From Deltaproteobacteria bacterium (GTDB lineage: Bacteria; Desulfobacterota; Binatia; UBA9968): a stretch of DNA of 64,000 nucleotides. Positions 9,606 to 13,431 of this stretch are shown piece after piece; positions within the stretch are counted from its first letter, which is position 1; each line of letters opens with the position of its first letter. Below the pieces are notes generated by a model. That model was not told the DNA's origin. It saw only the letters and a program-made list of their open reading frames with translations, and searched no databases. The DNA is taken from assembly GCA_016210115.1 (NCBI GenBank), contig JACQUW010000419.1:1-64000 (forward strand). The letters run 5' to 3'. The position numbers and the translations under genes were made by a program.

Positions 9606-10337
9606 ATGCAGCGTTTTTCAGTCGAGGTGCCACTTCAAGAAGGTGGCGTAACGGTGCAGCCGATGAAGGAGTGGCTCCGGCGCAATCCGGGCCACTTGCC
9701 CGCGGGAATGAGTCCTGCGTCAAGCACCTCACACCAGATCCGCGCCGCGCTCAAAAAGCGAGGCTGGCAAGTGCGAGAAACCTCAGACGAAGTTCGGCTC
9801 GTAATGCCACGGTCCGCCGCCAGTGGTAACGACGCGAGCGTCGAAATCCCAGCCGGACCGCGACCCATTCTCAGTCGTAGCGCGGATAAGCTTTGGTGCT
9901 GGGAAGGAAACGTCGTTTGCGCGGTTGCAACGTTCTTAACCGAAAACGGTTGGATCATCGAAAGCACAGCAGACACTGCGCGGAGCGAAGCCGGTGCCGA
10001 CATCCAAGCCAGACGCCATGATCAAATATTGATTGTGGAAGTGAAAGGATATCCGTCCGAGGTTTACGAGCGTGGCCCGAAAGCCGGGCAGCCAAAACGA
10101 ACAAACCCCGCAACCCAGGCGAGACATTGGGTCGGTGAAGCTCTTATGACTGCGGTTTTGCGCCAAGCCGATGGTAAGGCGCATCAAGTTGCCCTCGCAT
10201 TTCCAGAGTTCAGCGTTTATCACAAACTTTTGCGGCGTCTTGAAGACTGTCTCAAGAAGCTCGAAGTGCAACTGCTATTCGTAAATGAAGCTGGTAAGGT
10301 TCGTGTCGTGATCGATCGTGGTATCGGAAGAACGTAG
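9606..10337 (+). CDS. Cassette-borne protein with a PD-(D/E)XK nuclease-like C-terminal domain
   Basis: The first 80 or so residues show no family I know. From about residue 95 the pattern is that of a restriction-endonuclease-like fold: a helix after Glu100 (WEGNVVCAVATFL), GWIIESTAD, then GADI with Asp132, and ILIVEVKGYPS with Glu145-x-Lys147, followed by an amphipathic helix region and a strand (HQVALAFPE). This E...D...ExK spacing suits a Mg-dependent nuclease. A defence or DNA-repair role is inferred only. It is the first gene of the + array, with an attC beginning 13 bases after its stop. No ribosome site precedes ATG 9606; an in-frame ATG at 9663 is an alternative start. Confidence 0.7.
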   Translation: MQRFSVEVPLQEGGVTVQPMKEWLRRNPGHLPAGMSPASSTSHQIRAALKKRGWQVRETSDEVRLVMPRSAASGNDASVEIPAGPRPILSRSADKLWCWEGNVVCAVATFLTENGWIIESTADTARSEAGADIQARRHDQILIVEVKGYPSEVYERGPKAGQPKRTNPATQARHWVGEALMTAVLRQADGKAHQVALAFPEFSVYHKLLRRLEDCLKKLEVQLLFVNEAGKVRVVIDRGIGRT

Positions 10338-10349
10338 CAGAGGATCGCC

Positions 10350-10430
10350 GCTTAACAATCGGCTTGACAGAGATCTTCAGCCCGCTCGCTGGGCTCGCTG
10401 GCTTCGGCTGGTCAGCCTGATTCGTTAGCC
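10350..10430 (+). other. attC recombination site (81 bp)
   Basis: GCTTAAC (10350-10356) and GTTAGCC (10424-10430) are the outer cores; AATCGGCTTGA (10357-10367) pairs with TCAGCCTGATT (10412-10422) leaving unpaired bases, as in a folded attC bottom strand. The site starts 13 bases after the nuclease-like gene, closing that cassette. Confidence 0.85.
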
Positions 10431-10546: not shown

Positions 10547-10747
10547 ATGTCAAAGGTTGACGAACTTAAAACTGAAATCGAGCGACTTCCCGAGGATGAA
10601 TTTTCCGAGCTTGTCCGGTGGCTATCGGAGAAGGATTGGGAGAGATGGGACAAGGAGATCGAAGCCGACTCCGAGGCTGGGAAACTGGATTTCCTGGTAC
10701 GTGAGGCGCTCGACGCGAAAGCCAAGGGAACTCTCAAGGATCTGTGA
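10547..10747 (+). CDS. Putative antitoxin of a type II toxin-antitoxin pair
   Basis: A 66-residue acidic helical protein: MSKVDELKTEIERLPEDEF, then WLSEKDWERWDKEIEAD and DFLVREALDAKAKGTLKDL. The composition and length match small antitoxins that precede RelE/ParE-like toxins ('addiction module' family), which wrap and block the toxin with an extended C-terminal helix. No DNA-binding fold is obvious, so autoregulation is uncertain. GGAGG lies 5 bases before the ATG. Its stop overlaps the GTG of the next gene by four bases (GTGA), indicating translational coupling. Confidence 0.75.
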   Translation: MSKVDELKTEIERLPEDEFSELVRWLSEKDWERWDKEIEADSEAGKLDFLVREALDAKAKGTLKDL

Positions 10748-11007
10748 AACATCGCACAACCGCCCGTTTCTGGGCTTGCTTCGCGCTTCTGCCACAACCC
10801 GTTCAGAGAGCCGCTCGACGAAACTTCAATCTTCTGAAAGAAAACCCTTCACACCCTTCGCTGCACTTCAAAAAGGTCGGCAAGCTTTGGTCTGCGAGAG
10901 CCGGGCTTCATCACCGGGCACTTGCGGTCGAGGACCGGGAGGATTTCATCTGGGTTTGGATCGGTCCTCATGATGAGTATGAACGACTCATCAAGCAACA
11001 GGGCTAA
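10744..11007 (+). CDS. RelE/ParE-superfamily-like toxin
   Basis: An 87-residue basic protein whose second half, HFKKVGKLWSARAGLHHRAL, then a strand ending FIWVWIGPHDEYERLI, follows the strand pattern of RelE/HigB-type folds with the basic residues that contact RNA or ribosome. It starts with GTG overlapping the antitoxin stop. If active it would cut mRNA at the ribosome or act on gyrase like ParE; which one cannot be told. The pair fills one cassette: attC starts inside the last codons (11002). Such modules are known to stabilise integron cassette arrays. Confidence 0.75.
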   Translation: MKHRTTARFWACFALLPQPVQRAARRNFNLLKENPSHPSLHFKKVGKLWSARAGLHHRALAVEDREDFIWVWIGPHDEYERLIKQQG

Positions 11008-11062
11008 CCATTGGGTTGAGAAGGACGCTGAGAGACGCGCCTCTCACCCCTTACCGTTAGCC
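11002..11062 (+). other. attC recombination site (61 bp)
   Basis: GGCTAAC (11002-11008) and GTTAGCC (11056-11062) are complementary outer cores. GGGTTGAGAAGG pairs with CCTCTCACCCC with extrahelical bases, leaving a GACGCTGAGAGACGCG terminal loop. It is nearly the same as the site at 13074-13133. Confidence 0.92.
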
Positions 11063-11090
11063 AACATGGGGGGTCAGGAGGAGTACGGTC

Positions 11091-11594
11091 GTGGATGACA
11101 AAGAGTTCAAGACGCGCGCCAGTCGCCTGGAGCAGATTGCCAAGGTTCTTGAGAAGCTGCCGGCAGAGGTTCGTAGTGACGCGTTCGACCTTCTCAAGGG
11201 CTACGTGACTGAGCACTCTTCCCCGCCTCGAGCTAGAACGAAAGAGACCAAGGGCCAACGCGATGCCGCAGCGCAATCTGAAGAGGAGTTCTTCGGCGCT
11301 TTCGATCACGACAAGCCTGCGGACAACGCGAAGCTCGTCGCCGCATGGTTCTACCGCGAATATGGCGCGGAGCCTTTCTCACTGGATGAGGTTCGGGCGA
11401 AGGCGGATGCCGTGGGCATCACGGTTCCTGCCCGCGTAGACATGACCTTCGTGCAAGCGAAGGAAAAGGGGAAGAAGCTCTTTGCCCGAGCCGGCACAGG
11501 CAAGTTCAAGCCGACAGTGCACGGAGAGGCCAACCTGAAGTCGATCTACTCCGTCAAGAAGGGGACGAAAAAGCGCGAGGGGGATGCTGAGTGA
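11091..11594 (+). CDS. Unknown cassette protein with a C-terminal winged-helix-like domain
   Basis: A 167-residue protein started by GTG behind a strong AGGAGGAG. Residues 1-40 form a charged helix pair; 41-75 is a Ser/Arg/Gln-rich linker; 79-153 (KLVAAWFYREYGAEPFSLDE onward to HGEANLKSIY) reads as a winged-helix unit. That unit aligns with residues 18-93 of the next protein (VLAVLYYRERYEQKTALTVDE, then a long helix, a KGKK/QGKK turn and a terminal wing), so the two are related by domain duplication. The stop overlaps the next start by four bases. It ends a cassette leader with no promoter of its own. I do not recognise a named family; a regulator or partner of the HEPN protein is the natural inference. 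Confidence 0.7.
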   Translation: MDDKEFKTRASRLEQIAKVLEKLPAEVRSDAFDLLKGYVTEHSSPPRARTKETKGQRDAAAQSEEEFFGAFDHDKPADNAKLVAAWFYREYGAEPFSLDEVRAKADAVGITVPARVDMTFVQAKEKGKKLFARAGTGKFKPTVHGEANLKSIYSVKKGTKKREGDAE

Positions 11595-12334
11595 CCCTCG
11601 TCGAGTTTCTTGCGCCGCTTGCCAAGCAGACGCATCAGGAGCGGGTCCTTGCTGTTCTGTACTACCGAGAGCGCTACGAGCAGAAGACGGCTCTTACGGT
11701 CGACGAGGTTCGTCAGGCTCTGAAGAGTGCACGGGCAAAGGGATGGGCCAAGGTCAACGTCGCAGACGTTTTGAGCAAGAGCGGACCCCTTGTGGACACG
11801 AGCGGGCTGCAGGGCAAGAAACGCCTCTGGAATCTTACGGACTCCGGCCGCGAGCACGTGCGCATCCTGCTTGGGCTGCCCAAGGCCGACGTGGAAGTGG
11901 AACATGATGTCGGCACCCTCGAAGATGTCGTTGCCAAAGTCACGGACGCCGATGTACGCGACTATCTTGAGGAGGCTGTAAAGTGCCTCCAAGTTGGGTC
12001 GCTGAGGGCCTGCACAGTTTTCGTGTGGGTTGCGGCTATTCGCACGATCCAGTCGAACATGATGGCTAAGGCGCCGGCAGCGGTCACCGCTGCCCTTCAG
12101 AGACACGACCCAAAGGCACGTCCCATAAAAAGCCTCGACGACTTTGCGCACGTCAAGGACGCAACGGCTCTATTGGCAGCGAAGGACCTCGGCATCCTGG
12201 ACAAGAACCAGAAGGATACGCTCACCGAGGCCCTCAACCTCCGAAATCGATGTGGCCATCCGGGAAAGTACCGCCCGGGCATCAAGAAGGTATCGGTTTT
12301 CGTTGAAGACATCACGTCGATTGTCTTTGCGTAG
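11591..12334 (+). CDS. Winged-helix plus HEPN-domain cassette protein
   Basis: A 247-residue protein starting at GTG 11591. Residues 18-95 form the winged-helix-like unit shared with the upstream gene (LTVDEVRQALKSARAKG, RLWNLTDSGREHVRILLG). Residues 105-245 are all-helical and end with LNLRNRCGHPGKYRPG: Arg218-Asn-x3-His223 matches the RX4-6H signature (polar residue after Arg) of HEPN ribonucleases. HEPN proteins act as RNases in toxin-antitoxin, abortive-infection and CRISPR systems; some are only RNA-binding. The arrangement, a coupled wHTH partner plus wHTH-HEPN effector in one cassette, suggests a two-component toxin or defence unit. The exact function is not known. Confidence 0.75.
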   Translation: MTLVEFLAPLAKQTHQERVLAVLYYRERYEQKTALTVDEVRQALKSARAKGWAKVNVADVLSKSGPLVDTSGLQGKKRLWNLTDSGREHVRILLGLPKADVEVEHDVGTLEDVVAKVTDADVRDYLEEAVKCLQVGSLRACTVFVWVAAIRTIQSNMMAKAPAAVTAALQRHDPKARPIKSLDDFAHVKDATALLAAKDLGILDKNQKDTLTEALNLRNRCGHPGKYRPGIKKVSVFVEDITSIVFA

Positions 12335-12343
12335 AGGCATGTT

Positions 12344-12403
12344 GGCTAACAACAGCATGCAGCGGACGGCGTTGCGCGCCGCCGCTAATGCTGAACGTTA
12401 GCC
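12344..12403 (+). other. attC recombination site (60 bp)
   Basis: GGCTAAC (12344-12350) and GTTAGCC (12397-12403) are perfectly complementary; AACAGCATG pairs with the distal AATGCTG, and GCGGACGGCG with CGCCGCCGC. It begins ten bases after the HEPN gene stop. Confidence 0.92.
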
Positions 12404-12428
12404 GTGCAGGCGCTGAGACTTTTACTGG

Positions 12429-12463
12429 TTGCCAATCTCGTTTGTGTGTGATTACAATGTAAT
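12429..12463 (+). promoter_or_regulatory. Promoter with overlapping palindromic operator for mazEF
   Basis: TTGCCA (12429-12434), an 18-base spacer and TACAAT (12453-12458) make a good sigma-70 promoter, each box one base from consensus. The 13-base perfect palindrome ATTACAATGTAAT (12451-12463) covers the -10 box, exactly where an autoregulating MazE-MazF complex would bind. The ribosome site GGAGG follows. A cassette with its own promoter is typical for toxin-antitoxin cassettes. Confidence 0.6.
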
Positions 12464-12477
12464 GCCGGAGGATCCAA

Positions 12478-12729
12478 ATGAAGAGTCGCATTGTTCAGAT
12501 TGGCAATTCGCGGGGTATCCGCCTGCCGAAGGTGCTTCTAGAGCAAGCCCAGCTCACCGACGAAGTTGAACTTGACGCCGAGCCAGGTCGGATTGTGATT
12601 CGCAGAGAGAGCCGACCGCGCGCCGGGTGGGCAGCTGCAGCTCGAAAAATGCGTGAGCGAGGTGAAGACCGCCTCATTGATCCCACGACTCCGACGCAGT
12701 TTGATGAGAAAGACTGGAGGTGGCGATAG
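12478..12729 (+). CDS. mazE: MazE-type antitoxin (AbrB/SpoVT fold)
   Basis: An 83-residue protein opening with the AbrB swapped-hairpin signature RIVQIGNSRGIRLPKVLLEQA and VELDAEPGRIVIRRE. The C-terminal half (RAGWAAAARKMRERGEDRLI, then a DEKDWRW end) is the flexible toxin-neutralising tail. It binds its own operator and inactivates MazF. GGAGG stands correctly before ATG 12478. The toxin gene overlaps its last ten bases. Confidence 0.88.
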   Translation: MKSRIVQIGNSRGIRLPKVLLEQAQLTDEVELDAEPGRIVIRRESRPRAGWAAAARKMRERGEDRLIDPTTPTQFDEKDWRWR

Positions 12730-13058
12730 GACCGGCGGTGCCATCACGAGGTGACGTTTACCTGGTCCAGCTTGATCCGACGCGGGGTAGTGAGATTCGA
12801 AAAACACGGCCGTGTCTTGTGGTGTCACCGGACGAGTTAAACGATCACCTGCGCACGGTTATCGTCGCACCAATGACCACCGGCGGGCACGCTTACCCAT
12901 GGCGGGTTTCGTGCCGTTTCCAGGGCCGAACCGGATTTGTCGCGACGGACCAACTTCGCACTGTGGATGTTGAGCGGCTAGCGAGGCGACTTGGACGATT
13001 ATCTCCCAACTCCCTGGCGGCCGTCTTGTCCATCTTATCGGAGATGTTTGCGCCTTAA
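12720..13058 (+). CDS. mazF: MazF-type endoribonuclease toxin
   Basis: A 112-residue PemK/MazF protein: RGDVYLVQLDPTRGSEIRKT, RPCLVVSPDELN, VIVAPMTTGGHAYPWRV and GFVATDQLRTVDVERL are the ordered family motifs, including the conserved Arg and Thr/Ser of the RNA-cleavage site (Arg in IRKTRP). It would cleave specific mRNA sequences when free of MazE. Start is GTG 12720 with the GGAGG of the mazE end as ribosome site. Together with mazE it makes a complete cassette. Confidence 0.92.
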   Translation: MAIGPAVPSRGDVYLVQLDPTRGSEIRKTRPCLVVSPDELNDHLRTVIVAPMTTGGHAYPWRVSCRFQGRTGFVATDQLRTVDVERLARRLGRLSPNSLAAVLSILSEMFAP

Positions 13059-13143: not shown

Positions 13144-13431
13144 ATGTGGTCAGTTTTGCGAGCTGGCTCCACGATTTTGAAATGCTCGTTTTGCGGCAAG
13201 ACGCAGGACGAGGTTCGAAAGCTTATAGCGGGACCGAAAGCTCATATTTGTGAGGAATGTGTGGACCGTTGTATTGATGTCCTGGCAGAGGAACTTGCGA
13301 AGAAATCTCAGGGCTGCCTACTTTGCGGATCGACAAAAGAACTGCACGAAATGAGGCGTATTCCGGGGCGAGGTCCCGTGTGCGGGGAGTGTCTCGACGC
13401 CGTCAGAGCAGTGATTGAGAAAACAACCTAA
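13144..13431 (+). CDS. Free-standing ClpX-type zinc finger protein with a second zinc site
   Basis: A 95-residue protein. Residues 12-50 match the ClpX N-terminal zinc-binding domain: Cys14-SF-Cys17[14 protein letters not shown] and Cys36-EE-Cys39[11 protein letters not shown]. There is no AAA+ ATPase part. A second pair of CxxC motifs (Cys58-LL-Cys61 and Cys80-GE-Cys83) forms another zinc site with [18 protein letters not shown]. In ClpX the domain dimerises and captures adaptor proteins and substrates; a free copy could compete with or redirect ClpXP, which is inference. It occupies a whole cassette, with the stop inside the following attC. No ribosome site; ATG lies 10 bases after the attC. 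Confidence 0.85.

Follow-up and report, generated by a model that had tools for sequence, protein, structure and literature searches.

Organization of the cassette and its integron setting

Two open reading frames, here termed gene A and gene B, lie in tandem on the forward strand of the window, by which is meant the whole 64 000-nucleotide stretch of deltaproteobacterial DNA that was analysed. The end of gene A and the start of gene B share four bases (GTGA, 11591-11594), and both the positions of the two frames and their overlap agree with the original prediction, which had been made from the sequence alone. The features of the cassette are listed below; labels beginning with L denote loci that carry relatives.

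11002-11062, forward strand: upstream attC-type site, GGCTAAC...GTTAGCC, with the cassette junction at 11056
11076-11081, forward strand: AGGAGG ribosome-binding site of gene A, from the sequence
11091-11594, forward strand: gene A, 167 aa, GTG start (ORF call)
11121-11213, forward strand: helical segment of A, residues 11-41, with a weak likeness to the partners encoded upstream of the L004 and L005 HEPN genes
11322-11543, forward strand: winged helix of A, residues 78-151, of the family of the B N-terminus (ten-member profile)
11591-12334, forward strand: gene B, 247 aa, GTG start (ORF call)
11591-11872, forward strand: winged helix of B, residues 1-94, in the order H-H-H-H-E-E-H (AlphaFold2, Foldseek)
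11912-12328, forward strand: HEPN domain of B, residues 108-246 (profile matches, all-helical AlphaFold2 model)
12242-12259, forward strand: R-X4-H motif RNRCGH, R218-H223 of B, the predicted RNase active site (sequence)
12344-12403, forward strand: the A-B cassette's own attC-type site, GGCTAAC...GTTAGCC, with a homologous attC in L002

Two matches to GGCTAAC...GTTAGCC occur in the window, against 0.01 expected by chance, and more GTTAGCC sites are found on the same strand at 10424, 13505 and 14204. Together with the ParE-like and MazE/MazF genes that flank A and B, these same-strand sites point to an array of cassettes. The genome assembly also encodes an integron integrase on another contig (C303; TIGR02249, 461.5 bits, above the curated cut-off). 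Upstream of gene A lies an overlapping gene pair (10547-11007), the second member of which encodes a ParE-like toxin (Pfam PF24732, E=0.0013); it is probably a separate toxin–antitoxin cassette. A MazE/PemK(MazF) toxin–antitoxin cassette (12478-13058) adjoins the A-B cassette, followed at 13144-13431 by a small cassette protein that has a ClpX-type C4 zinc finger (4.3e-19) without the ClpX ATPase and is possibly an adaptor or anti-ClpX protein. At 9606-10337, a 243-aa protein with weak Pfam matches only contains a VEVKGY stretch that looks, by eye, like a PD-(D/E)XK-type nuclease core.

Toxin–antitoxin cassettes are abundant in integron arrays and usually bring their own promoter. The leader of gene A is about 34 bases long, and a scan of it gave no match to a sigma-70-like promoter, a consensus that may not be that of the host; unlike the A-B cassette, the MazEF cassette next door has a promoter-like site (12429-12458).

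Both genes are present a second time in L002, a contig of a metagenome-assembled genome (JAJVIK010000008.1), where the homologue of gene A (L002:4501-5004) has 78% protein identity and that of gene B (L002:5001-5744) 85%. The DNA of L002 and the window is 81% identical over 1349 bases (window 11056-12404) and shows no similarity beyond. Since this similarity runs from GTTAGCC to GTTAGC and stops at the cassette ends, the pair constitutes one cassette, bearing out the proposal that it fills a single integron cassette. The host of L002 and that of the window belong to different phyla, as indicated by the 14 genomes of the former phylum against at least 395 of the latter in the collection searched. 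Comparison of the two copies gives a dN of 0.122 and a dS of 0.770 for gene A (dN/dS about 0.16), and a dN of 0.081 and a dS of 0.697 for gene B (dN/dS about 0.12); both proteins are under purifying selection and are thus being kept. The second copy lies right beside recA (L002:2432-5744), in a genome with no clear integron integrase by the TIGR02249 cut-off. L002 is the only close homologue in the collections searched. Direct searches of viral contigs, phages and plasmids with A or B gave no close relative, and the HEPN pair of L004 and L005, run against viral contigs, found none either.

Domain composition of the two proteins

The AlphaFold2 model of B, built from seven sequences, has a mean pLDDT of 87.9 and a pTM of 0.57, a value so low that the arrangement of the domains is not fixed. 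It contains an N-terminal winged helix (residues 1-94) and a helical domain with the motif (residues 108-246), the two parts that the original prediction expected a structure to contain. Residues 1-94 form helices at 3-10, 15-30, 37-46 and 57-63, strands at 68-74 and 77-82, and a helix at 84-94. Foldseek matches this part to AF1382 (prob 0.99), to hsRosR and to winged helices of the VanR/PadR type.

The second part of B had been described as an all-helical domain ending in the motif. Its helical nature is borne out, but not its end: the long helix 205-222 ends in R218-N219-R220-C221-G222-H223 and a further helix (231-246) comes after it, as expected of HEPN, with pLDDT mostly above 85. A profile of five members of the domain matches Dandelion-hepn (PDB 9wx2), a recognised HEPN domain, at E=4.8e-4 over most of its length, including the R-X4-H, and the domain is also matched by phrog_27609 (E=9e-6). 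Proteins of about 450 aa from plasmids of Paracoccus, Methylobacterium, Rhizobium and Streptomyces score 54-64 bits against the HEPN profile and in turn match the PD-T7-3 phage-defence model, the Streptomyces one at 2.5e-32. By fold, Foldseek returned a weak match of the helical part to HEPN AF_0298 (2hsb; prob 0.85, E=0.36). The assignment of B to HEPN is better argued from sequence relationship than from the fold match. Arginine and histidine, whose loss in homologues would have spoken against the assignment, are kept in every homologue aligned, the distant L019 having R-X6-H.

In active HEPN RNases the motif stands at the end of helix 3 and a polar residue follows the arginine, and HEPN families without Rx4-6H exist (Anantharaman et al., PMC3710099). 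In B the motif closes a long helix within a helical bundle, and N219 supplies the polar residue. B is therefore predicted to be an active RNase by these criteria, and the earlier claim of a full HEPN RX4H motif stands.

The product of gene A comprises an N-terminal two-helix segment, a charged linker, a C-terminal winged helix and a basic tail. Its AlphaFold2 model, from two sequences, is unusable (pLDDT 45), and the two N-terminal helices are a low-confidence prediction. The original prediction aligned the C-terminus of A with the N-terminus of B as one duplicated winged-helix unit. Compared directly with each other, the two score at chance level (hhalign 19.2, where the highest of 100 shuffles reached 18.9), and a family profile with intermediates was used in place of this comparison. 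In hmmsearch, the resulting ten-member winged-helix profile gives 16.3 bits for A and 20.3 bits for its homologue, whereas no score above 8.5 was obtained from 5000 shuffles, and hhalign aligns it with the A C-terminus over 70 columns (probability 93%, E=3e-7). On the strength of these scores, the C-terminus of A belongs to the winged-helix family of B; the claim of duplication stands by way of the family, and not by direct alignment. Residues 11-41 score 21.9 in hhalign against the N-termini of the L004 and L005 HEPN partners (best of 200 shuffles, 19.0), a weak lead to a possible relationship that is slightly above shuffled sequence. No nucleotidyltransferase match was found for A in Pfam, NCBIfam or PADLOC.

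Loci of distant relatives and comparison with known systems

HEPN domains of the B type recur in several gene contexts. In L004 and L005 two-gene pairs are found whose second protein ends in such a domain, and the neighbourhood of L004 contains a Shedu-like gene (1e-30), a TIR/Pycsar-like gene and a PDC-S11 gene. In L007/L038 the HEPN gene is preceded by a DUF5343 gene (Pfam 9e-35; PADLOC candidate PDC-M34A, E=5e-42), and this pair sits inside a BREX operon (L038:589-14146; BrxC, PglX, BrxHI, PglZ); in BREX loci, a role as auxiliary effectors has been described for HEPN RNases (PMC12839542). A ParB-domain protein has a B-type HEPN domain as its C-terminal end (L017:562-2004), a ParB-HEPN fusion type known since 2013. 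The match in L018, where a radical-SAM-like gene dominates the locus, covers 66 positions only and was left out.

Relatives of the winged helix of B occur in other genomes of the phylum of the window (L006, L029-L035). In L006:15-1265/L041 a homologous domain is fused to AbiEii (9e-30), and type I restriction genes and a gene for a PDC-S09 protein adjoin. At L029:673-1893 the winged-helix gene is followed directly by one for a PDC-S05 protein (2.7e-12), which has an IHDRYII stretch and is possibly PLD-like. At L030:632-1986 a winged-helix gene is followed after 14 bases by one for a 281-aa protein without a family match, the C-terminal half of which reads, by eye, like a TIR or deoxyribosyltransferase-type domain. 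The relatives in L031-L035 are solitary and stand among ordinary or housekeeping genes. The proposed link to conflict systems is supported by the BREX, Shedu/TIR/Pycsar-like and type I restriction–modification contexts.

Neither A nor B reached a family in Pfam, NCBIfam or PADLOC. In PADLOC, A had no match and the best match of B (E=0.028) covers 41 residues only of the 432-position PD-T7-3 profile, which falls short of full-length membership; weak Pfam matches to Bestrophin-like, PIN_6 and wHTH-PRTase_assc (E of at least 0.15) were set aside as noise. The PD-T7-3/Dandelion HEPN proteins (PDB 9wx2, 9wxf) share with B an alignable HEPN domain including the R-X4-H, but they are about 450 aa long, with the HEPN domain N-terminal, another C-terminal region and no winged helix seen, and the plasmid examples viewed have no A-like partner. 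The literature searched contained no paper that mentions both Dandelion and HEPN. The DUF5343 (PDC-M34A) pair of L007/L038 resembles A-B in that a HEPN gene of the same profile follows another gene in a defence context, but the partner is DUF5343 and the HEPN gene has no winged helix. The winged helix-HEPN-REase protein of the EC042_2821 type (PMC3710099), likened to B by description, also fuses a winged helix to HEPN; it is a single protein with an additional REase domain, found in restriction–modification operons.

Two published families come closest to the A-B pair in organization and setting. HEPN/MNT (HepT/MntA) is likewise a two-gene HEPN RNase module, but its antitoxin is a nucleotidyltransferase and A is not, so that membership of this type VII family was rejected. 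The integron cassette HEPN (3jrt; Anantharaman et al. 2013, PMC3710099) is cassette-borne like B and is a proposed stress or toxin RNase. PMC3710099 mentions no winged-helix fusion or partner for this family, no sequence match is detectable, and the PDB matches that B gives up to E=10 do not include 3jrt; this membership was rejected too. The individual parts are of known kinds, namely HEPN RNases, winged helices, integron-borne HEPN and winged helix-HEPN fusions, and no description of a pair with a winged helix common to partner and effector was found in the papers searched.

A candidate two-protein conflict module

The reading that we favour, and that we consider somewhat better than an even chance, is that the A-B cassette is a two-protein conflict module in which the winged-helix partner restrains a HEPN RNase toxin or mediates its triggering. 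The pair would then probably be an undescribed toxin or phage-defence pair. The HEPN domain of B would act as a metal-independent endoribonuclease, halting growth or aborting phage infection. A would most likely keep B inactive, or signal to it, by direct contact between the two winged helices, and the HEPN domain would be set free once A is lost or a trigger from the phage arrives. We infer the RNase activity, the toxicity, the contact between A and B and the direction of control, the part of the original toxin-or-defence proposal that goes beyond the data; the domain calls, and the link to conflict systems drawn from the loci of relatives, are supported.

Several lines of evidence support a conflict module. 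The pair is translationally coupled and has been kept together, under purifying selection, in two phyla. The HEPN domain matches both a solved domain and PD-T7-3-like proteins, and has its R-X4-H where a long helix ends. Its relatives occur in two-gene pairs (L004, L005) or after DUF5343 inside a BREX operon; defence genes surround L004, relatives of the winged helix are found with AbiEii and type I restriction–modification genes or with PDC-S05, and the neighbouring cassettes are ParE-like and MazE/MazF. Against it stand the single close homologue and the unusable model of A, the resemblance of the distant partners to A at a short N-terminal stretch only, the solitary winged-helix relatives among housekeeping genes, and a leader with little room for a promoter, in which none was found, in contrast to the MazEF cassette.

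Within this module, a toxin–antitoxin reading is favoured by a gene order as in type II toxin–antitoxin systems (two small overlapping genes, with the possible antitoxin in front), by the coupling and by the cassette setting. An antitoxin-like role for A is a reasonable candidate, though we would not bet on it. The defence neighbourhoods of the relatives and the missing promoter favour a defence reading, and a sensor or adaptor role for A in phage defence is the less probable of the two. The toxin–antitoxin and defence readings are not exclusive, and in practice the two roles overlap.

Taken as an explanation of the whole cassette, a phage-defence sensor module, to which we give about one chance in four, would have A and the winged helix of B switch on the HEPN domain after recognizing a phage protein or foreign nucleic acid; A would be an activator or adaptor and not an antitoxin, and B alone may be harmless. 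The BREX, Shedu/TIR and type I restriction–modification neighbourhoods suit this, as does the recurrence of the winged helix beside different effectors (the AbiEii fusion, the PDC-S05 protein, the 281-aa protein), and no promoter of its own was detected, unlike in an addiction cassette. A trigger or ligand-binding domain is, however, not visible, and the cassette sits between two toxin–antitoxin cassettes in the kind of array where these abound. The best fold matches of the B N-terminus are DNA-binding regulators, some winged-helix relatives are solitary in housekeeping regions, and HEPN families lacking Rx4-6H are known (PMC3710099), all of which would fit a pair of DNA-binding transcription regulators in which the helical domain of B serves dimerization or nucleotide binding and has no RNase function. 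Yet inactive HEPN families lose the motif, while B has it in full and the aligned homologues keep it invariant, and we regard such a pair as improbable. An ordinary toxin–antitoxin module from a family already known, be it HEPN/MNT or the integron HEPN described earlier, would account for the HEPN domain, the overlapping genes and the integron setting; it is contradicted by the sequence, given the missing nucleotidyltransferase and 3jrt matches and the family searches, and we judge it very improbable indeed.

Beyond the conflict module itself, a bolder extension, which we put forward as speculative and rather unlikely, would make the winged helix the portable adaptor of an unrecognized class of defence modules, in which sensing or docking falls to one winged-helix protein and effectors are interchangeable. 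Effectors such as the HEPN RNase, the AbiEii nucleotidyltransferase, the PDC-S05 protein and others would be exchanged by fusion or operon exchange. With the winged helix duplicated in the A-B cassette, sensor and effector would recognize each other via paralogous copies.

If the conflict-module reading is correct, A and B would form a compact, mobile two-gene HEPN module, cassette-borne between phyla and missed by current profile libraries. It would bring together two families, one winged-helix and one HEPN, each found repeatedly in phage-defence loci, and would offer a small, directly testable case of an RNase controlled by a partner with which it has a duplicated domain in common.
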